From: a virus
Direction: 5' to 3' (one strand)
Virus record (IMG/VR): IMGVR_UViG_3300025154_002798
Coordinates: 1-52,760 of that record
DNA: 52,760 nucleotides
Shown here: piece by piece, positions 1 through 52,760 of the stretch
Layout: each line of letters starts with the position of its first letter
How positions within the stretch are numbered: position 1 is the stretch's first letter
Program-made: the position numbers and the translations under genes
The notes under the pieces: generated by a model
The model's database searches: none
What the model was told of the DNA's origin: nothing
The model's input: only the letters and a program-made list of their open reading frames with translations

Positions 1-2337
1 ATGACAGTAAAAGAAAAATCATATATTCTACAAGAAGAAGCTCCACAATTAATGGTTTCCGACCAACAATTGGAATTGTTTCGTGATTTGGAATTAGCAA
101 AATACAACGATAGTGATTTATATAACGGCAAATCTAAAAATAAATTAAATGTAGTTTCTCTATTTACTGGTGCTGGTGGGTTAGACATAGGTTTTAAAGA
201 AGCAGGGTTTAACTGTGTATTTGCATCTGATATTATGCCTCAAGCAGAGACTACTTACAATTATAATTTTCCATCAACACCTTTCGTAAGAAAAGACGTC
301 AGGTTGCTTTCTAAGGAAGAAATAGAGAATTTGATTGGTAAAAACAAAATTGATGTGCTAATTGGTGGACCTCCTTGTCAAGGTTTCTCAAATATGGGGA
401 ATAAAAATTCATCAGACCCTAGAAATTATCTGTTTGAAAATTATGTGAAGATTGTGGAGACAATACAACCCAAATGTTTTCTTTTTGAAAATGTGAAAGG
501 ATTATTTACAATGTTTGAAGGTCGTTTTTTTGATAAAGTCGTAAATGCATTTTTAGAAATTGGTTATAATGTTTCTTACTCTATGATTGATTCGTCTAAA
601 TATGGCGTACCTCAAAAAAGGGAGAGGATAATAATTTTCGGTACTAAGATTAATAGGTCATTTAGATTCCCTAAACCAAATTCAAAATCATTTGGTAGAA
701 TAAGTGCCTTTTCAAATGTTGGTGAAGCTATAAACGATTTAATGCAACTAGAAAATAGATACCCAAATCATGTTCCATTAAATCACAATGAAATAGTTGT
801 TCAAAGATATAAACTTATCCCAGAAGGTGGAAAATTGCCAAAACCTGAGGAACTTCCTGAAGAAATTAGAAGGAAAAATTTTGGAAATACATACACAAGA
901 TTAAACAGAAAGGAAGTCTCATCAACAATAGTTCCTGGCAATAATGCTTTACCTGTTCATCCAGTTTTAAATAGGAGTTTGACAGCTCGTGAAGCTGCAA
1001 GAATTCAAACGTTTCCTGATTATTTTATTTTTAGAGGGGATAGACGTTCCCAATGTATTCTTGTTGGTAATGCTGTGCCTCCATTACTTGCAGCCAAGTT
1101 GGCAGAATGCGTTGCAAATTTTATTAATGAAATTGAATATGATGGAATAAGTCCTGATGGTCAAGCAAAAGTTGGCACTAAATTTTCTCGTCATAAAGTT
1201 AACACAGTAAAGAAAAATGGGCGTGCAAATTTAAAATTCGCTGATTTATTTAGTGGTGTTGGTGGTTTTACGCAAGGCTTAGAAGCTGCTGGACTTGAAT
1301 GTGTTTTAGGTGCAGATTTTGATGAATATGCTGTTGAAGCATATCGTAGAAACCATTCTTCCCATGAATGTTTGAAAATAGACCTAGCTGACCCTAAAAA
1401 TCAAAAGATAGTAGCTGATAGGTTGAAAAAAGAAAAAGTTGATTTAATAGTTGGAGGGCCTCCTTGTCAAGGATTTTCTATTTTTGGGAAAAGACGATTT
1501 GTAAACACAAAGAATCATGATTTAAAAAAAGACAAAAGAAACGATTTGGTGTTTGCATTTGCAAATATTGTAATAAGGTCAAATGCAAACTGGTTTATTA
1601 TGGAAAATGTTCCAGGTATTCTTTCAGCACATAGTGGTTCTTATGTTGAGGAAGTAAGAAATTATTTTTTAAAACATAAATATAAAACGGAAATAAAAAT
1701 CATAAATGCAGCAGATTATGGTGTTCCTCAGTTGAGAAAGCGCTTTATTTTGTTTGGTACTAAGACAGACCTCATGATTCCATTTCCAAAACCAAAATAT
1801 TTTGAAACACCTGAATCATGGCAACTGCCATACAGAACAGTTGGTGAAGTTTTAACTGACTTATCTAACGAAAAAACATTAGGCAAATATCAAAATCATT
1901 TTGCACCAAACCATTCTCCAATAATTGTGGAAAGATTTTCATACATAAAAGAAGGACAAAAATTGGAAATTGAATCTTTACCAGAACACTTGAAGAATGG
2001 TACTAAGACTGGCAAACCAATGGCAAACTACAGTCATGTTTTTAAACGTTTACATAGGAAAAAACCTGCTGGCACTATTGTTCCTGGTCATAATGCATTC
2101 CCTGTTCATCCAACATTAAATAGAACTTTAACTGTGAGGGAAGCTGCAAGAATTCAAACGTTTCCAGATAATTATGAATTTGTTGGTCCAATAATAAATC
2201 AATGTTTACAAGTAGGTAATGCTTTCCCTTGTTTAGTCGCTCAAATTTTTGGGGAAAGGCTTAGAACAGTAATAAATAAAGAATGGAGTGAAGAAAGTGC
2301 GACTCATTTAGCTAAATACTCAATGTTAGAAAAATAA
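1..2337 (+). CDS. Tandem double cytosine-C5 DNA methyltransferase (R-M modification subunit)
   Basis: The 778-residue protein holds two complete C5-cytosine methyltransferase domains in tandem. Domain 1 has the AdoMet motif VSLFTGAGG near residue 52, the catalytic GGPPCQG loop (Cys126), FENVKG and QKRERIIIFG. Domain 2 starts near residue 412 with FADLFSGVGG and has GGPPCQG (Cys489), MENVPG and QLRKRFILFG. Both domains keep the C-terminal AARIQTFPD and VGNAxP motifs, so both look catalytically intact. A single-domain enzyme is usually 300-450 residues. Family knowledge: such enzymes transfer a methyl group to cytosine within a specific site; paired domains often serve asymmetric sites. It is followed 4 bp later by the endonuclease gene. 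It is the only operon on the plus strand and opens at the window's first base, so the start is assumed. Confidence 0.93.
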   Translation: MTVKEKSYILQEEAPQLMVSDQQLELFRDLELAKYNDSDLYNGKSKNKLNVVSLFTGAGGLDIGFKEAGFNCVFASDIMPQAETTYNYNFPSTPFVRKDVRLLSKEEIENLIGKNKIDVLIGGPPCQGFSNMGNKNSSDPRNYLFENYVKIVETIQPKCFLFENVKGLFTMFEGRFFDKVVNAFLEIGYNVSYSMIDSSKYGVPQKRERIIIFGTKINRSFRFPKPNSKSFGRISAFSNVGEAINDLMQLENRYPNHVPLNHNEIVVQRYKLIPEGGKLPKPEELPEEIRRKNFGNTYTRLNRKEVSSTIVPGNNALPVHPVLNRSLTAREAARIQTFPDYFIFRGDRRSQCILVGNAVPPLLAAKLAECVANFINEIEYDGISPDGQAKVGTKFSRHKVNTVKKNGRANLKFADLFSGVGGFTQGLEAAGLECVLGADFDEYAVEAYRRNHSSHECLKIDLADPKNQKIVADRLKKEKVDLIVGGPPCQGFSIFGKRRFVNTKNHDLKKDKRNDLVFAFANIVIRSNANWFIMENVPGILSAHSGSYVEEVRNYFLKHKYKTEIKIINAADYGVPQLRKRFILFGTKTDLMIPFPKPKYFETPESWQLPYRTVGEVLTDLSNEKTLGKYQNHFAPNHSPIIVERFSYIKEGQKLEIESLPEHLKNGTKTGKPMANYSHVFKRLHRKKPAGTIVPGHNAFPVHPTLNRTLTVREAARIQTFPDNYEFVGPIINQCLQVGNAFPCLVAQIFGERLRTVINKEWSEESATHLAKYSMLEK

Positions 2338-2341
2338 TATT

Positions 2342-3598
2342 ATGTCAGTAAATCATCATCTTCTTGCAAAAGCAACAACTGATTCAGTTTTAGCAAATTT
2401 TAAATCAGGTGCATGGAAATGTTGCACAGATGTAGGTTTAGATTTTTATAGAGTTGGTTGTGATAGCAGTTTCCCTTCTCCTGATGCAGCCTTCTACGAT
2501 GATGCAAAAAAGTTAATGGTAACATTTGAGTTCAAGCCACCCACAGAAACTAAAAGAGGTATTTTGACGGGGTTGGGTCAATCTATTGCATATTTAAATA
2601 GTAGCAACTTGTCATACCTTATTGTGCCACAAACATTAGAGGATTATGATATTGGTGGCTACATGACAAATTTATATCAAAACCAAATTGAAGAAAGTCT
2701 ACCAGTCGGTTTAATTGTTTATGAGAACAATGCACCAACAAAAGTTTCGCTTATTCATAATGTAAATACTCTAACTAAAACAAAGGAATTTAAAGCTATA
2801 GCAAGTGGTAGGTTTTGGGCAAAACACTTAGATATGCCAATACCTTTATTTCATTTAATTCTCCATTGCTATTATTTAAAAAAAATAGGCCAAATTACTG
2901 GCGATGCATTTGCTTATTGTTGGGAAACATATTTAGTTCCAAATAGTGTTTTAAAAACATTAACTCCAACTGCAATTAAGGATATGAATGGAGATTTCAT
3001 TGAAACTTTGTCTGGAAGAAAGAATATTATCTTTTTTGAGAAGAAAATAGCAGCACTTAAAAAGTTATCTGGAGCAACTAAAGGAAAGGCTATAGCAGAC
3101 TTACGACAAGATGCTGATACATCATTTATTGGAGATAATTATTACAATTCTATTAAGAAAAATTTTGTTACATTTTTAAAACATATTGGAGTAGTTGATT
3201 CAATTGGTCATTTAACAGAGGAGGGTTTTAAACTTTATCATTTAGGCTTAGTTAATGGTCCAAACAGTAAAATATTCCAAGACTACTTTACACAAACGGT
3301 TTTAATTACTGGTCACCATTTAGATTTGATTTTTGATTTGGACAACTTATGTAATCAATTCAGGGGCAAATATGAGATTATGAAAATCAGAGAAATAATG
3401 CTGGAAGATTATGAGGCGAGAGGAATGATTAAAAGAAATCCAAATAGAAAAGCTGGTGATGAAAGTAAGGTTGAGTTTCTAAAATATGAATTTATTTTAT
3501 GGAATTCATTAAATTTAACAGTAAAGACAAATGGTACACCTGATGTTTCTTTTAATTGGAAAAAAATAACAGAAGTTTGTTCTATGCCTGATTTATAA
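2342..3598 (+). CDS. PD-(D/E)xK type II restriction endonuclease (R-M partner)
   Basis: A 418-residue protein lying 4 bp downstream of the double methyltransferase, so the two are surely co-transcribed. The N-terminal half contains SPDAAFYDD (Asp48) followed 15 residues later by FEFK (Glu63, Lys65) and LGQSIAYL (Gln80). This is the D...ExK...Q arrangement of PD-(D/E)xK nucleases. The rest (about residues 150-418) is not recognised and may bind DNA. Inferred role: cleavage of unmodified DNA at the sequence protected by the neighbouring methylase. The gene ends immediately before a long hairpin at 3601-3694. Its function as the cognate restriction enzyme rests on motif and position only; the recognition site cannot be read from sequence. 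Confidence 0.8.
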   Translation: MSVNHHLLAKATTDSVLANFKSGAWKCCTDVGLDFYRVGCDSSFPSPDAAFYDDAKKLMVTFEFKPPTETKRGILTGLGQSIAYLNSSNLSYLIVPQTLEDYDIGGYMTNLYQNQIEESLPVGLIVYENNAPTKVSLIHNVNTLTKTKEFKAIASGRFWAKHLDMPIPLFHLILHCYYLKKIGQITGDAFAYCWETYLVPNSVLKTLTPTAIKDMNGDFIETLSGRKNIIFFEKKIAALKKLSGATKGKAIADLRQDADTSFIGDNYYNSIKKNFVTFLKHIGVVDSIGHLTEEGFKLYHLGLVNGPNSKIFQDYFTQTVLITGHHLDLIFDLDNLCNQFRGKYEIMKIREIMLEDYEARGMIKRNPNRKAGDESKVEFLKYEFILWNSLNLTVKTNGTPDVSFNWKKITEVCSMPDL

Positions 3599-3600
3599 GC

Positions 3601-3694
3601 CCACGCTTCGTAGTCAAGCACATTGGCTGGTCGCACAAAAATCCAACACGCGACCAAAACCAGCCAAAGAGCTTGCCTACCCAAACGCACGTGG
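3601..3694. repeat. Long imperfect palindrome after the R-M operon
   Basis: The arms pair as CCACG/CGTGG, GTAG/CTAC, CAAGC/GCTTG, TTGGCTGG/CCAGCCAA and GGTCGC/GCGACC. The pairs are separated by short bulges, with a loop at about 3634-3650. It begins 3 bp after the endonuclease stop codon. It could act as the R-M operon terminator, although there is no T-run. It could also be a further recombination-site-like hairpin, because bulged bases on one arm resemble integron attC folding. The rest of the gap to the next site (3695-3743) shows nothing recognisable. Confidence 0.6.
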
Positions 3695-3743: not shown

Positions 3744-3880
3744 GTGCCTAACAAGCGGTCATAAAACATTGGGGGTTAAGTGGTTAATCGAGCGTTCTAC
3801 CTCGCATCAAGGTTCGGTATCGGGGGATACATTCGCAGCTCCGAAAACCCCAACGTTTCATACCGCCGTCCGTTATAGGC
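3744..3880. repeat. attC-like cassette junction A (long class)
   Basis: The outer cores are GTGCCTAAC (3744-3752) and GTTATAGGC (3872-3880). Inside them the arms AGCGGT/ACCGC, AAAC/GTTT and TTGGGG/CCCCAA pair across a loop. The loop carries a stretch (about 3776-3845: GTGGTTAATC, then TCGCATC, GTTCGGTATCGG and GCTCCG) that recurs in site C. Read on the minus strand, the stop codon of the 92-aa gene falls inside the first core, as is typical for integron cassettes. The cores differ from each other, but each matches the far end of its own unit: 3744 matches 52636-52644 and 3872 matches 4169-4177. Confidence 0.7.
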
Positions 3881-4151
3881 AATACGGTTTGGTGCATTTA
3901 ATAAACTTTGGTTTTTTGTTCAAATAAATGAATTCGTTCCACCAACCAGTACAAGGTAATATCCAATATTGAAAACTATACCATTGGTAGGTTTTTGTTT
4001 TCCCCCCAGTTCCTCTTGATGCTATATTACCATCTGCCATTAAATCGAAACTATGTAATGTATAGTTTTCAATTCGCTTCTCAGTACATTTTGTAAGTCG
4101 AACAAAAAACCACTGAAAGAAAAATACGTTTACTGCTTTTAATTTAGTCAT
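3873..4151 (-). CDS. Cassette gene, 92-aa protein of unknown function
   Basis: No family is recognised for this 92-residue product. It is rich in aromatic residues (WFF, YQWYSFQYW, GWWNEF) with several Lys and Cys and no clear membrane span. The main support is position. The start lies 18 bp after the GTTATAGGC core of site B (minus-strand reading) and the stop lies inside the core of site A, the exact layout of an integron-type cassette. The leader AATTTTAACGATATG resembles the one in front of the RtcB gene (TTAATTTTACGATATG), suggesting a shared translation signal. It could be a spurious frame in a non-coding cassette. Confidence 0.5.
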   Translation of the reverse strand: MTKLKAVNVFFFQWFFVRLTKCTEKRIENYTLHSFDLMADGNIASRGTGGKTKTYQWYSFQYWILPCTGWWNEFIYLNKKPKFIKCTKPYCL

Positions 4152-4168
4152 ATCGTTAAAATTGCACT

Positions 4169-4303
4169 GCCTATAACAACAAATATAAAACAGCAGGGCA
4201 GTATTACTGAATTATAATGTGTGCTACTATTCATCATTTGTGGTCGGCTGATAGGGTTTTGCACTTAATCCCTGCCGTTTCATATTTGCAGCCGTTACCT
4301 GCA
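4169..4303. repeat. attC-like cassette junction B (long class)
   Basis: The cores are GCCTATAAC (4169-4177) and GTTACCTGC (4295-4303). The arms CAAATATAAAACAGCAGGG and CCCTGCCGTTTCATATTTG are nearly perfect inverted copies flanking a loop of about 65 bp. Length is 135 bp, the same as sites A and C. On the minus strand the RtcB stop codon lies 22 bp before the core and the next gene starts 18 bp after the site. Confidence 0.72.
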
Positions 4304-4325
4304 AGTGTAAGAAACTGCACAGCCA

Positions 4326-5510
4326 TTAATGAGCCTTGAAATTATAGAGTGGTTTAATCACTCCGATAATATCAACGGTTTCAGTAATTGCAGATTTAAT
4401 TTCATCAATTGATTTATAAGCCTGTGGAGCTTCATCCAAAGTTTCAGTAACAACCGAAGTTGTATAAACATCTTTCATTGTTTCAACAAAATCAGCCATA
4501 TTAATAGCTTCTTTTGCTTTGCTTCGGCTCATTAATCTACCTGCTCCATGAGGTGCTGAATAGTTCCAGTTTTCATTTCCTTTGCCAATACACAATAAAG
4601 AACCATCACGCATATTAATTGGAATAAGCAATGTTTCCCCATTTTCAGCAGAAACCGCACCTTTTCTCAAAATCATGCGTTTAAAATCAATGTAGTTGTG
4701 TATTGTTTCAAATCGTTCAGCTTCTTGCAAACCAGCTTCTTTTAAAATAATTTCAGCCATTGTTTCACGGTTCAAAGTCGCAAATTTTTGAACAATAGCC
4801 ATATCATTCATATAGTCGGCAAAGTTATTACCAGTTAAAAAGGCTAAATCCTTATCGGTTACAGGCTTTTTAATCTTCTTAATTTCGGCTGCAATTTCTT
4901 TTTCTCTACCTTCTGCTTTTAGTTTGTCAATTGCATTTTTAACAACTTTGCTCATTTCATTGGCATTTTGAAAGGCTTTATCTTGGTAATACTTACAAGT
5001 ATCACCGCCTAATTTTCGGCTTCCTGAATGTATAATCAAATACAGTTCGCCAGTTATTTCATGTTTGCCGACTTCAATAAAATGGTTTCCACCACCAAGC
5101 GAACCAATTGAAAGCACTGCACGGCTTAAATTAACGTGTTTTTCACAGCGTAAATTTGTAAAGTCGAAATCTTTCTTTGATTTTTCGTGAACACTAAAAC
5201 CACAAGGCACTTTAGTTTTAATTACTTCGTCCAGTTTTTCAAAGTCAATTTCTTTGTTTTTGAGCTTAATTGTAAGCATTCCGCAACCAATATCAACACC
5301 TACCAAATTTGGAGTTACTTTGTCGGTTATAGTTATTGTTGTACCAACTGTACAACCTTTACCAGCGTGTGCATCAGGCATAATTCGCACATTTGCATTT
5401 TCATACGCTTCAAAGTTTACCAGTTTTTTAATTTGGTCATACGCTTCAAATTCAAATGTTTCAGCGAATATTAGCGTTTCAATTCCTTTGTTATTTTTAA
5501 TCGTTTTCAT
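4326..5510 (-). CDS. rtcB: RtcB-family RNA ligase (short form)
   Basis: The 394-residue protein carries the RtcB signatures in order: MPDAHAGKG (44-52), the metal site GVDIGCG (Asp73, Cys76), GGGNHF (His143), IHSGSR (His161), HN (His271) and APHGAGR, whose His321 would take GMP. Family knowledge: RtcB uses GTP and Mn to join RNA 2',3'-cyclic phosphate or 3'-phosphate ends to 5'-OH ends in tRNA or damaged-RNA repair. All key residues are present, so activity is plausible. It is one unit of the cassette series, bounded by inverted 9-mers GTTACCTGC/GCAGGTAAC in sites B and C. In a phage context, repair of tRNAs cut by host anticodon nucleases is a reasonable inference. Confidence 0.92.
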   Translation of the reverse strand: MKTIKNNKGIETLIFAETFEFEAYDQIKKLVNFEAYENANVRIMPDAHAGKGCTVGTTITITDKVTPNLVGVDIGCGMLTIKLKNKEIDFEKLDEVIKTKVPCGFSVHEKSKKDFDFTNLRCEKHVNLSRAVLSIGSLGGGNHFIEVGKHEITGELYLIIHSGSRKLGGDTCKYYQDKAFQNANEMSKVVKNAIDKLKAEGREKEIAAEIKKIKKPVTDKDLAFLTGNNFADYMNDMAIVQKFATLNRETMAEIILKEAGLQEAERFETIHNYIDFKRMILRKGAVSAENGETLLIPINMRDGSLLCIGKGNENWNYSAPHGAGRLMSRSKAKEAINMADFVETMKDVYTTSVVTETLDEAPQAYKSIDEIKSAITETVDIIGVIKPLYNFKAH

Positions 5511-5551
5511 ATCGTAAAATTAAGAATATTAATAAATTAGTACAAACACCA

Positions 5552-5685
5552 GCAGGTAACACAAGCTATAACCAATAAAGGTTTTAGTGGTTAATCAAAC
5601 GTTGTAGCTCGCATCCAGTTCGGTATCGGTTGATAGTGCATCGCTCCGTAATCCTTTACTGGTAATAGCCACAAACGTTACCTGC
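5552..5685. repeat. attC-like cassette junction C (long class)
   Basis: The cores are perfect inverted 9-mers GCAGGTAAC (5552-5560) and GTTACCTGC (5677-5685). The inner arms AGCTATAACCAATAAAGG and CCTTTACTGGTAATAGCC pair with few mismatches. The central loop (about 5583-5650: GTGGTTAATC, TCGCATCCAG, TTCGGTATCGG, GCTCCGTAA) is clearly homologous to the loop of site A, so these are members of one repeat family rather than chance terminators. Read on the minus strand, the stop of the upstream 96-aa gene is 3 bp before the core. Confidence 0.75.
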
Positions 5686-5688
5686 AAT

Positions 5689-5982
5689 TTATTTTACCCC
5701 ACGCTCCTTCTGCATTTGTTCCAGTCGTTCTTGAAATCGGCTTTTCTTGCCTACCTCTGTAAAGTTTTTAATTTCGCTCTTGTTTTTAACTGCGAACACA
5801 GCACTTGCAATAAACATCAATAGTGCTACTCCTGCACATATTAAAATCATCCAAACGCTCCACCAATTAAAAACTTTGTCCTTCACCAAGTAGAGTATAA
5901 ATTCTACTATCGCCCAAATTGATGATGCTACTGCTCCTAAGTAGGCAAGAAAAGCCGTTACTCCTGTTAATATTGTTTTCAT
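5689..5982 (-). CDS. Cassette gene, small two-helix membrane protein
   Basis: A 97-residue product with two hydrophobic helices (about residues 5-34 and 42-64) and a highly charged C-terminal tail (KSRFQERLEQMQKERG). It is likely an inner-membrane protein with a cytoplasmic basic tail. No family is recognised. It fills the unit between sites C and D. The unit's edges are GTTACCTG and CAGGTAAC, and the stop codon abuts the site C core. A frame shifted by one base from 5867 to 6055 is a shadow of this gene. Confidence 0.68.
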   Translation of the reverse strand: MKTILTGVTAFLAYLGAVASSIWAIVEFILYLVKDKVFNWWSVWMILICAGVALLMFIASAVFAVKNKSEIKNFTEVGKKSRFQERLEQMQKERGVK

Positions 5983-6022
5983 TTTTAAATTTGTTTAATG
6001 CCTCCCTTAGTAAAATAAACTG

Positions 6023-6123
6023 ACAGGTAACAAGGGCTTGGCAAAATGCCACCAATCAGCTTTGTGCCTTGAATTTTATCGGTTGCTTGGTGGCACTATC
6101 GCCAAGCCCCGTCCGTTATAGCC
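6023..6123. repeat. attC-like cassette junction D
   Basis: The cores are ACAGGTAAC (6023-6031) and GTTATAGCC (6115-6123). Two perfect stems lie between them: GGGCTTGGC/GCCAAGCCC and TGCCACCAA/TTGGTGGCA. They are separated by unpaired bases that differ in number on the two arms, a feature of attC folding. Length is 101 bp, shorter than A-C, and the loop sequence is different. Minus-strand reading places the 82-aa gene's stop codon 2 bp before the core. Confidence 0.75.
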
Positions 6124-6125
6124 AA

Positions 6126-6374
6126 TTAAAAAATCCACATCGCATTATCAATTGCAGCTCGATGACAAATTGAACAGGCTACACTTCCGCTTTTAACTGA
6201 TTTATAATTATCATCATACCATATACCAGCTTCTTTTATATCTTCAAAAAAATACTGTTTATCAAAAGCTTCGTAAACCATAGCATTTTCATTACATACA
6301 TGGTCAGTTGGTTCGCCTCCGCACATTATTGCAGTAGATTCGCCTAAGTCTATTATTTTACATCCTTGTCTCAT
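6126..6374 (-). CDS. Cassette gene, 82-aa Cys-rich protein
   Basis: A short acidic protein with five cysteines, including C-x8-C near residues 18-27 and a CxxCH pair near the C-terminus, so it may bind zinc. No family is recognised. The stop lies 2 bp from the core of site D and the start 5 bp after the core-like GGTTATAGC of site E, leaving almost no leader. It is one unit of the minus-strand cassette series. Confidence 0.6.
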   Translation of the reverse strand: MRQGCKIIDLGESTAIMCGGEPTDHVCNENAMVYEAFDKQYFFEDIKEAGIWYDDNYKSVKSGSVACSICHRAAIDNAMWIF

Positions 6375-6379
6375 TTATT

Positions 6380-6440
6380 GGTTATAGCTTCATCGTTAGT
6401 AGCAAGGCAAAGACGCTCCGATTGAACGTCCGTGCCAAGC
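6380..6440. repeat. attC-like cassette junction E (short class)
   Basis: A short site whose hairpin GCAAGGCAAAGACG/CGTCCGTGCCAAGC surrounds an 11-base loop (6402-6440). The same 40-bp element occurs at 41304-41343 with 36 of 40 bases identical. The core next to the 82-aa gene reads GGTTATAGC where the unit's other end (GTTATAGCC at 6115) predicts GGCTATAAC. In other words the palindromic-centred octamer appears inverted here. Confidence 0.6.
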
Positions 6441-6449
6441 ATTTAGATT

Positions 6450-6572
6450 TTAGTCTGTGATAATTGACAATTGTCCACAGGCTGCGCCATTTTCAATCTC
6501 ACTTTGAGTTGCTACGGCAACGGCAAAATCATAGCCGTTTTCTTCTAATTGACTTTTAATTTGTTCAGTCAT
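6450..6572 (-). pseudogene. Out-of-frame C-terminal fragment of the RlmN-like radical SAM gene
   Basis: Forty codons that end in NGAACGQL followed by a short tail. AACGQL is the conserved motif around the C-terminal catalytic cysteine of RlmN-type methyltransferases, which the upstream 260-residue protein lacks. A TTAAA tandem duplication at 6584-6593 shifts the frame. Removing one 5-bp copy reads straight through and gives a single protein of about 303 residues. The stop lies next to the hairpin of site E, so the full gene would fit the cassette as the others do. Confidence 0.7.
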
Positions 6573-6583
6573 TGCTTTATGTA

Positions 6584-7366
6584 TTAAATTAAATTAATTC
6601 CCTCTACTACTCCACTTCCAAGCCCATTCTTTTCAGAAGTAGTATTCGGGTTTATTGGGCTTATTTTTATGAAAAATTTATCTTTATCAAAATGTTGTTT
6701 AATCTTTTTAATATCAAAGTCTTTTTCTTCTACCAGCGTTAAGTTTATGGTAGTTTTCAAATTGCTTTCGGTTCTTACATTTCCAAGTTGCTCAATGGTC
6801 ATTTTGTTTTTGAATGGTATTAGCCAATTCCTATGCTCTTCATCCAAGCTATGCAAAGAAAGTTGCAGCGTCAGATTGTCTTTTATCCAAGTAAAATCAG
6901 CATCTTTCAAACCAATAGTTGAAATATAGTGGTGTGTATTTGGGTAGTGTTGGCTTATTTTTTCAATTGCCTTTTTTACGTTTTCAATATTTAAAAACGG
7001 TTCTCCCATTCGGGTATAGTTTATTTTAAACTCTTTACTATCCAATGGGTTTATGTTGTTTTTAGCAATTATAAACTCAACTTGGGTTGTAATTTCTTGC
7101 CAAGTCAAATTACGCCAACTTTTCATTTGTCCAGTTGCACAAAATTTGCATCTTACAGGGCATCCACTCATTACGCTTACTCCAACCATCCAGCGTTCCG
7201 AACGGTCGCTTAATTCGTAATTGTCTAGCATATTTTGCTTTCTACCTATTGCATCTTTTGTATAGTAAGGTAAAAAAGTATCGGTAGTTTCAATTAACAT
7301 TCCGTCCTCTAATTCGAGGCAATAAACGCTACCGTTTTTAAAGTTCTTTTGTTTTTTAATTTTCAT
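6584..7366 (-). CDS. RlmN-like radical SAM protein, frameshifted (N-terminal part)
   Basis: A 260-residue radical SAM protein with the CxxxCxxC iron-sulfur motif at Cys69, Cys73 and Cys76 (GCPVRCKFCATGQ). It also has TRMGEPFLN, an RlmN/Cfr-family signature, then LQLSLHS and KISPINPNTTSE. RlmN and Cfr methylate adenine 2503 of 23S rRNA and need a second catalytic cysteine near the C-terminus. Here translation stops before it. The missing segment with AACGQL lies directly downstream in another frame (6450-6572). As written the enzyme should be inactive unless frameshifting or slippage restores it. At about 303 residues even the repaired form is shorter than RlmN (350-390), so the substrate could differ. 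It is a cassette unit between sites E and F. Confidence 0.85.
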   Translation of the reverse strand: MKIKKQKNFKNGSVYCLELEDGMLIETTDTFLPYYTKDAIGRKQNMLDNYELSDRSERWMVGVSVMSGCPVRCKFCATGQMKSWRNLTWQEITTQVEFIIAKNNINPLDSKEFKINYTRMGEPFLNIENVKKAIEKISQHYPNTHHYISTIGLKDADFTWIKDNLTLQLSLHSLDEEHRNWLIPFKNKMTIEQLGNVRTESNLKTTINLTLVEEKDFDIKKIKQHFDKDKFFIKISPINPNTTSEKNGLGSGVVEGINLI

Positions 7367-7412
7367 TGTATCAATATTTTAAGATTAATAATAAAAACAA
7401 TGGCACTTGGTT

Positions 7413-7504
7413 TCCTAACCGATGGCTTGTCAAACACTGTATCTTATTTTCATAAGCGAAACTTGTACAGGCAAAGCCACTGTTCTTATTCTAAACCGTT
7501 AGCC
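7413..7504. repeat. attC-like cassette junction F (right end of first cluster)
   Basis: The cores are TCCTAAC (7413-7419) and GTTAGCC (7498-7504), with inner arms TGGCTT/AAGCCA and short flanking pairs. Pairing is weaker than in sites A-D. On the minus strand the stop of the 96-aa gene at 7517 lies 12 bp before the core. That gene is therefore either the last cassette gene or the first phage gene. The surrounding gap (7367-7516) holds nothing else. Confidence 0.5.
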
Positions 7505-41271: not shown

Positions 41272-41362
41272 TTTGGTAACCATTCGGCAACCAACTTGTT
41301 ATAAGCAAGGCAAAGACACTCCGAATAAACGTCCGTGCCAAACTTAAATTAGTCGTTATAAG
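41272..41362. repeat. attC-like junction G (short class) plus shared flank
   Basis: It contains GTTATAAGC at 41298, the short-class hairpin (41304-41343, 36 of 40 bases identical to 6401-6440) and the core GTTATAAG (41355-41362) that carries the last codons of the 226-aa gene. The flank 41272-41301 matches 52610-52639 at 25 of 30 bases (CAACCAACTTGTTA identical). Both cassette loci are therefore bounded by the same sequence. Confidence 0.6.
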
Positions 41363-42029
41363 TTGACCATTCAGTTTCAATATTTCCCAAATCACATTCA
41401 ATAGTACAACCCATTGCATATAATTTGAAAAGAAATAAATCAAACCCCCTTAATCCTATTTCAGTTATAGGATGCAATGCAGCTCCTTCGATTGTTGGAG
41501 AATATAAGCTTTTTGATTTCCCGTCAATCATTAATTTATACCTGCACTGGTATCTGTGCGTTTTCTTTTCCGCGCTTTCATCAAATGCTATATGAATAGT
41601 GCCATAATCTGAAACTTCATGGATAAAGGCAATTTCTCCGCTTTCACCGTATTCGTCAGGTATTACTTCCTCTTCTTTATATTTTTCAATAATTTCAGAA
41701 AGTTTCCATTCTTTCTTTTCTAAAGCACCAACAAAGTTTTTAATCATTTCTTTAGCTGGTGCAATTCCGATTTCAACAACACTTTTGTTTAATTCAAATT
41801 CTACTAAATCGGTAAGCGTTTTTGAATACTGAACAAAATCGAGTTTTTCAAAACCTTCAATTATTTTAGCATTCAATTTTTCTTTGAACGACTTATTTAC
41901 ATCGCTCCAACTTGAAAGGGAATCATTTATAATTCCATTAATAAAACCAGTAACTTGTTTTGTTACAATTTCATCAAGTTTACCGTTTTCGGTAAGTTCT
42001 TTAATTTTGTCACTAATCAATTTTTCCAT
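41349..42029 (-). CDS. Cassette gene, 226-aa protein of unknown function
   Basis: Residues 1-120 are helical (MEKLISDKIKELTENGKLDEIV; AKEMIKNFVGALEKKEW). Residues 120-226 are mixed alpha/beta with HRYQCRYKLMIDGKSKSLYSPTI. No family recognised. The stop codon lies 4 bp inside junction G, and the 8-mers GTTATAAG and CTTATAAC at 41355 and 42079 form the unit's inverted ends. It interrupts the phage replication region, so it is cargo rather than a phage gene. Confidence 0.7.
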   Translation of the reverse strand: MEKLISDKIKELTENGKLDEIVTKQVTGFINGIINDSLSSWSDVNKSFKEKLNAKIIEGFEKLDFVQYSKTLTDLVEFELNKSVVEIGIAPAKEMIKNFVGALEKKEWKLSEIIEKYKEEEVIPDEYGESGEIAFIHEVSDYGTIHIAFDESAEKKTHRYQCRYKLMIDGKSKSLYSPTIEGAALHPITEIGLRGFDLFLFKLYAMGCTIECDLGNIETEWSTYND

Positions 42030-42077
42030 TTTTTTTAAGTGTTTATGTATTAATAATTTGACTGATAATTAAACCCT

Positions 42078-42210
42078 GCTTATAACTTCGGCTAACCCGG
42101 CAAGTCAGGCAACCGTGGTTTCCGATCGGTGCAGCCCGTGTTAACTTTCGCTCTGATAGGAAAGTGAATCGCTTCGCACCCTGCCCTGCGTGTAGCCTTT
42201 AATGTTAGGC
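42078..42210. repeat. attC-like junction H (long class)
   Basis: Cores GCTTATAAC (42078-42086) and GTTAGGC (42204-42210), 133 bp apart, the same spacing as sites A-C. Inner arms GGCTA/TAGCC, CAGGCA/TGCCCTG and GGTGC/GCACC pair with bulges, less perfectly than elsewhere. GTTAGGC is the canonical integron 1R consensus (GTTRRRY). The 58-aa gene stops 6 bp before it. Confidence 0.55.
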
Positions 42211-52589: not shown

Positions 52590-52760
52590 TGATACTGAAT
52601 TGTTTATGACTTGGTAAACTTTCAACAACCAACTTGTTAGGCACAAGCGGGTACGATAAACGACCGTAGATAATTTTGCTGCAAAAAGACAAGAAAATGG
52701 AAACAGCCGACCCACAAAACAGCACATTTGCAAACCGCTCCAGCCGACACAAAACCAAAG
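52590..52760. other. Right edge: cassette boundary core and probable R-M leader
   Basis: It holds GTTAGGCAC (52636-52644), the exact inverse of GTGCCTAAC at 3744-3752. The flank 52610-52639 is shared with 41272-41301. AGCCGAC occurs twice, near 52708 and 52743. The last bases (CACAAAACCAAAG) would sit directly in front of the ATG at position 1 if the molecule is circular. No gene was recognised here. Confidence 0.5.

Follow-up and report, generated by a model that had tools for sequence, protein, structure and literature searches.

A mobile gene-cassette array in a probable Bacteroidota phage, most likely moved by a XerA-like recombinase of the host and not by IntI

Introduction

The virus record IMGVR_UViG_3300025154_002798 raises the question whether a phage can carry an integron-like array of gene cassettes and, if so, which enzyme moves them. 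The entire IMG/VR record, classed as linear, comprises 52,760 bases and was analysed as a whole; it is referred to here as the window. Close to one end, between positions 3750 and 7392, minus-strand genes alternate with hairpins that resemble the attC sites of integrons. By the prevailing view, integrons require the integrase IntI and are rare in Bacteroidota. Because recombination in an integron array crosses over within the core of the site, a cassette has two ends that are complementary to each other, and a single hairpin joins ends of different cassettes. Within Bacteroidetes proper, IntegronFinder 2.0 reported a single complete integron, that of Salinibacter ruber; further ones were reported from Chlorobi and Ignavibacteria (PMC9024848). 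We consider it probable that the window holds an array of mobile cassettes in a Bacteroidota phage, moved most likely by a XerA-like recombinase of the host and not by IntI.

The window encodes a terminase, a primase-helicase, an endolysin and further phage genes, nearly all on the minus strand. Since the terminase is distantly akin to those of Cellulophaga and Bacteroides phages, the host is very probably a member of the Bacteroidota. A preliminary description of the window had proposed an array without an integrase, and a profile search of the whole record indeed detected no PF00589 recombinase. None was found either in a second phage, IMGVR_UViG_3300027792_000002 (locus L001, hereafter V1), that is important for the comparison below.

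Results

A blind search for AAC...GTT stems, tuned solely for stem length, returned exactly four attC-like hairpins in the 9.5-kb end of the window, all on the minus strand. Site A (3750 to 3874) has the cores GCCTATAAC and GTTAGGCAC and a loop of 79 nt, site B (4175 to 4296) the cores GCAGGTAAC and GTTATAGGC and a loop of 77 nt, site C (5558 to 5679) the cores GCAGGTAAC and GTTACCTGC and again 77 nt, and site D (6029 to 6117) the cores GGCTATAAC and GTTACCTG and a short loop of 45 nt. When the search was run on the full window and 32 virus loci, it gave 28 sites versus 2 in Markov shuffles; 17 of the 28 were located in V1. A chance origin of the palindromes A to D is excluded. A covariance model built from phage sites (R1, whose E-values are rough) scored A, B and C at 100.6, 103.7 and 121.7 bits, respectively.

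The hairpins belong to a real repeat family, as the preliminary description had held. In an alignment of 14 long-loop sites from the window and V1, 14 of the 18 stem pairs change on both sides, and 88% of the cells pair; sliding the arms against each other lowers this to 46% or less. One stem position is an invariant G.T (G.U) pair (14/14) and a second position has it in 9 of the 14 sites. The stems have equal arms, and the conserved G.T pairs stand where integron attC sites have extra-helical bases; sites A and D have one bulge apiece. The common loop stretch that had been noticed in A and C is 82% identical (direct repeat D5). The gene-sense strand of the window sites folds better than its complement (-24.5 kcal/mol for the minus strand of site A). 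Exact-pattern scans with the shared loop or the left-arm motif gave no match or V1 alone, the sites being too variable for exact patterns, and blastn with site C as the query gave no match among phage and plasmid records.

The five minus-strand genes of the array, with products of 92, 394 (RtcB), 97, 82 and 260 (RlmN-like) amino acids (aa), were confirmed at their places. The 92-aa gene (3873-4151) lies in a cassette unit from 3872 to 4177 with the complementary ends GTTATAGGC and GCCTATAAC; its product matched nothing in Pfam or PHROG. The gene for the RtcB RNA ligase (4326-5510; PF01139, 7e-60; phrog_1075) is carried by a unit from 4294 to 5560 with the matching ends GTTACCTGC and GCAGGTAAC. 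The third unit (5677 to 6031, ends GTTACCTGTC and GCAGGTAAC, matching at 5/5 positions) holds the gene for the 97-aa membrane protein (5689-5982), which is weakly holin-like with a Pfam holin score under the cut-off. In three units the stop codon is 1, 12 and 32 nt away from the next core, in line with the earlier remark that stop codons lie near a site core.

The pairing of the cores follows the cassettes and not the hairpins. The right core of D (GTTACCTG) pairs with the left core of C, and the right core of B (GTTATAGGC) with the left core of A (5/5), whereas the two ends of D itself, and likewise those of B, do not match each other. Counted over all arrays, on phages and chromosomes, the 208 units include 159 whose ends agree at 5 or more of 6 nt. 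In a subset of 116 units, 76% matched, whereas pairing units at random gave 5% and comparing a site's own two ends gave 8%. The units thus obey the integron cassette rule with the crossover at the G^TT core. A comparison of homologous units yielded one clean pair (genome G381), in which the upstream hairpin recognised by the site model was 99% identical and the downstream one 51%, too few to generalise.

The RlmN-like cassette (6395 to 7392, minus strand) contains a radical-SAM gene for the 260-aa product (6584-7366; PF04055) with a small open reading frame behind it. With blastn, this cassette was found in V1 at 95.3% identity, from 7392 to 6394 and with sharp borders. There it is part of a different array and has the complementary ends GTTAGTAGC and GCTACTAAC, so that the same unit does occur in another order elsewhere, as the preliminary description had suggested looking for. 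The sites of V1 number about 20 and are spread over three arrays. Since relatives of the RlmN-like gene in 30 other virus contigs and four named genome loci carry no such sites, the gene also moves without cassettes.

The neighbouring 82-aa Cys-rich gene (6126 to 6374, minus strand) has lost the other boundary of its cassette and is fused to a half-site, E (6374 to 6403, minus strand). Only the R'' core GCTACTAAC and the left arm (GATGAAGCTATAACCAATAAATG) of E are left and the right half is deleted; E was assigned by comparison with the intact site of V1 and with the cassette boundary GCTACTAAC. The 82-aa unit violates the end rule because E is half a site and a further proposed palindrome, G, is no site: G scores nothing with the site model. 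Of the AAC...GTT palindromes proposed earlier, A to D were therefore retained, and E was reduced to a half-site that follows an unrelated short hairpin. This short hairpin (GCTTGGCACGGACG...CGTCTTTGCCTTGC) occurs at 6400-6442 and at 41305-41350, each time right before the end core of a different cassette, and looks like a terminator carried by the cassettes. It had been thought to be common to E and G, and is absent from G.

The search for an enzyme led to the chromosomes of Bacteroidota. Many of the sampled genomes (G-handles) are probably metagenome-assembled, and few candidates per genome were scored with R1, so that the counts are lower bounds. R1 matched at least 178 of 395 Bacteroidota genomes, with up to 115 bits; in two other phyla at least 1 of 199 and at least 1 of 200 genomes had R1 sites among the matches listed. 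Dense chromosomal arrays adjoin a tyrosine recombinase that scored 229 with NF040815 (XerA; cut-off 220) and 207 bits with the integron-integrase model TIGR02249 (cut-off 265). For the genomes with sites among the matches listed, 11 of 17 XerA-like enzymes were encoded within 20 kb of a site, versus 0 of 23 XerC/D-type enzymes (p = 5e-6). A further 20 XerA-like enzymes, most of them picked regardless of nearby sites, included 11 with sites in the locus, and several others were truncated by contig ends. In a tree the array recombinases were separated from IntI (100/100) and from XerC/D (100/99). The IntI-specific insertion, regarded as essential for integron function (PMC8138268), is absent: the spacing between GLR and HxLRH is 93-98 residues in 23 array recombinases versus 135 in IntI and about 100 in XerC/D. 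The solved structure nearest to the array-end recombinase is archaeal XerA (5hxy), and some of these enzymes are extended at the N terminus by about 95 aa.

At eight loci the core of the site nearest to the recombinase was taken and its reverse complement was sought. All eight loci contained one exact 9-mer complement, which marked the free-end junction; at seven loci this lay 103-144 nt away from the recombinase match. The junctions were followed by a common motif (AACTCGTTTATA, AACTTGTTTATA, AACGTTTGTATA), and the attI-like motif AACTYRTTTATA was common to the chromosomal platforms beside a XerA-like recombinase. The pattern AACT[CT][AG]TTTATA was found at 14 places in array loci, compared with 2-4 for scrambled versions, and 10 of the 14 copies lay just past the 3' end of a recombinase match. 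In the 64.6 kb of V1, both strands counted, the motif is present exactly twice, each copy forming the free end of a different array. An attI-like site accordingly adjoins the recombinase gene in the chromosomal platforms, and the hairpin sites are associated with a XerA-like recombinase and not with IntI.

These data bear on the reading that the array is an ordinary CALIN (a cluster of attC sites without an integrase) whose sites are an unusual attC variant and whose cassettes were mobilised by the classical IntI of a host and taken up by the phage. IntI was found above the curated cut-off in 105 of the 395 Bacteroidota genomes (27%), often with canonical attC arrays, which exceeds what the literature suggests for the phylum. 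The end rule applies to the IntI-linked arrays as well, and their cores are the same, e.g. GTTATAGGC in L091, and one IntI is encoded about 4 kb from four model sites. Phage CALINs have been published, and attC2 of the Polaribacter phage P12002L was recombined by IntI1 (PMC9892861). However, the IntI-linked attC arrays of Bacteroidota scored below 20 bits with R1, and their stem is different, with unpaired, extra-helical bases where the sites described here have G.T pairs. IntI was rarer in site-bearing genomes (39 of 178; odds ratio 0.60, p 0.03), and for the genomes with sites among the matches listed 1 of 21 IntI loci was within 20 kb of a site. It is a different recombinase that is encoded precisely at the array ends. 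An ordinary CALIN is thus unlikely.

The window has a second, small array that the preliminary description had overlooked. A lone attC-like site was detected in the replication region (42084 to 42206, minus strand; 57 bits with R1), and next to it a second cassette with a 226-aa gene (41349-42029; unit 41298 to 42086, minus strand) and the ends GTTATAAGC and GCTTATAAC. Matching free ends, likewise overlooked, are at 41,298 and 52,636. The free end of the second array is followed by the recipient (attI-like) element AAGTTGGTTGCCGAATGGTTACCAA (41273 to 41297, minus strand). The same kind of element, AAGTTGGTTGTTGAAAGTTTACCAAG (52611 to 52635, minus strand), is found behind the core GTGCCTAAC, which is the exact reverse complement of the outer core of site A. 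If the genome is circular, the end at 52,636 is the free end of the main array. The recipient element of the window phage (AAGTTGGTTGNNGAA..TTACCAA, at 41,297 and 52,635) is distinct from the motif of V1.

Similar arrays are present in V1 and at least 10 further virus contigs, including the lytic phage P12002L (L246), whose sites match R1. In two virus contigs the gene for a XerA-like recombinase (L263:1480-2372 and L266:1807-2669) separates the array from the large terminase gene, and in both the free end of the array is exactly 62 nt upstream of the recombinase start codon. The array of the window could also be host chromosome flanking a prophage, as it is near one end of a record classed as linear and adjoins convergent methyltransferase genes. 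We regard this as very improbable, since the phage replication region itself contains another site with its cassette, both free ends have one recipient element with one of them at the opposite record end, other viruses including a lytic one have similar arrays, and the phage has no integrase.

The orientation of the genes relative to the sites was then compared, with the site strand set by arm asymmetry and R1. In the virus contigs (L248-L302, V1 and P12002L) all 34 units had the gene on the strand that fits the model, versus 8 of 134 units (8:126) in the chromosomal loci (L156-L245; p = 3e-28); 11 virus contigs came via V1 or window cassette proteins, so the virus sample is not random. Because of this split, the viruses hold a mirror-image set of cassettes. 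The chromosomal order, the gene followed by attC, is the relation known from integrons. Our first idea, that the gene is inverted in every cassette, was rejected as 126 of the 134 chromosomal units have the normal relation. One idea for the viral inversion is that cassettes inserted at the recipient sites of a phage always have their own sites pointing against phage transcription, which would leave inverted cassettes as the only ones to be expressed. Another idea is that the coding strand is exposed during transcription, which would favour folding of that strand.

That the hairpins are mere RNA elements between genes (terminators, processing or stability elements) with an incidental likeness to cassettes would fit the better folding of the gene-sense strand in the window and the G.T pairs conserved on it (14/14 at one position), but it is already refuted by the end rule, since it predicts neither complementarity across the gene instead of within the hairpin nor exact junctions beside a recombinase, and the better-folding strand of the chromosomal sites is mostly antisense to the genes.

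Further features were observed around the arrays. The plus strand of the window from 1 to 3598 encodes a fused double C5-cytosine methyltransferase (1-2337; PF00145, 8e-142) and a 418-aa protein (2342-3598) that had no Pfam match and that we guess to be the restriction partner of the methyltransferase. If the genome is circular, the boundary match places these genes as cargo in a 3874-nt cassette of opposite orientation that adjoins the recipient site. After this operon, at 3610-3680, there is a 22-nt inverted repeat with a spacing of 27 nt (GTAGTCAAGCACATTGGCTGGT...), which the site model rejects. An Rfam search gave nothing relevant. On the chromosomes, one genome (G044) has a 94-nt hairpin with a tiny geneless unit (gttgaagaag...cttcttcaac) in four copies, at L171 9359-9605 and three more places, each preceding a different long-loop site; it is possibly a geneless mini-cassette. 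In another genome (G063, L162/L163) a 1.2-kb element in five copies of 99-100% identity splits hairpins at GTTTAC and seems to be an insertion sequence that targets these sites. The repeats starting with GTTTAC in this genome were considered as cassettes and rejected, as they are this insertion inside the hairpins.

Discussion

Sequence comparison provides the array, the end rule, the sharing of a cassette, the recombinase link, the attI-like junctions and the inversion; from these we infer the acting enzyme, the use of a host enzyme by the phage and the roles of the cargo. In the proposed mechanism, a cassette would consist of a gene and one attC-like hairpin and would be inserted by site-specific recombination at the GTT/AAC core. 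The enzyme would most likely be a host-encoded XerA-like tyrosine recombinase, the type found next to the attI-like AACTYRTTTATA and long hairpin arrays in Bacteroidota chromosomes. Cutting and joining at the core would leave the cassette ends complementary and turn the hairpins into hybrids. Phages would act as carriers of cassettes: the window phage and V1 would keep recipient sites only and rely on the host enzyme, and other phages would use the related recombinase that they encode beside the terminase gene. The cassette genes of the phages follow phage transcription, with their relation to the hairpin inverted compared to chromosomal cassettes, and the cargo (RtcB, the RlmN-like protein and methyltransferases) would be expressed within phage operons. 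Possible roles of the cargo are the repair of tRNA that a host defence has cut (RtcB), protection of the phage DNA (methyltransferases) and modification of RNA (RlmN-like enzyme).

Several points weigh against this mechanism. The link between enzyme and sites is one of association in the sequences. The slight negative link between R1 sites and IntI may reflect phylogeny. One genome (G011) has a true IntI about 4 kb from four R1-class sites (L114); it also has a XerA-type platform elsewhere (L207), and cross-use of sites is possible. In E. coli, IntI1 accepted some of the attC sites of P12002L for recombination (PMC9892861), although these are perhaps not the ones that match R1. The far free end of the main array rests on an assumed circularity, and IMG/VR lists the record as linear. 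The recipient element of the window was found in 0 of 380 Bacteroidota genomes.

Bacteroidota probably have an integron-like system that is widespread and, as it seems, so far undescribed. We find it plausible on balance that this system is their own and works with a XerA-type recombinase and its own attI and attC classes, and that phages exploit it in both ways: recipient sites or an own recombinase would load host-style cassettes, and a separate pool of inverted genes would be expressed from phage operons. If true, a second recombinase lineage would run arrays in nearly half of the sampled Bacteroidota genomes, an overlooked major route of gene exchange, and cassette recombination with folded sites would be possible without the IntI insertion. 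With the phage arrays, the traffic of cassettes between phage and host can be tested directly, and the strict viral inversion of orientation is a question with a clear experimental handle.

The integron-like character claimed in the preliminary description holds for the mechanism, with the end rule and a cassette shared with V1; membership of the integron/CALIN family is not supported, given the missing IntI link and the XerA-like enzyme. A CALIN-like array in a Bacteroidota phage is unusual, as had been said, but it is not new, since phage attC arrays, one of them in the Bacteroidota phage P12002L, are already published (PMC9892861). The non-IntI platform and the inversion of orientation appear to be new; a XerA-type cassette platform was not found described in the full-text literature, preprints and subscription journals being outside the scope.

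The arrays resemble integrons and CALINs in the cassette rule at the GTT/AAC core, the hairpin sites, the tandem single-gene cassettes and the attI-like platform at the array end. Unlike integrons, they have a XerA-like recombinase that lacks the IntI insertion, sites without extra-helical bases but with conserved G.T pairs and mostly a loop of about 77 nt, an attI-like site past the stop codon of the recombinase and, in viruses, cassettes with genes inverted relative to the sites. The phage CALINs of Qi et al. 2023 are likewise integrase-free attC arrays in virulent phages with methyltransferase cargo, but that work regarded their sites as ordinary integron attC sites and described no cognate recombinase, platform, recipient sites or inversion (PMC9892861). 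The array-end recombinase is over the NF040815 cut-off and has XerA (5hxy) as its nearest structure; XerA, however, resolves chromosome dimers (PMC8138268), whereas the enzymes studied here adjoin cassette arrays. They also differ from XerC and XerD, forming a separate clade, and 0 of 23 XerC/D-type hits were near sites. The term attG sites refers to integron cassettes that have entered a genome at places other than an integron. This name appears in PMC12901181. The cassettes described here likewise lie outside a classical platform, but their insertion is at repeated, conserved recipient elements and not at scattered sites.

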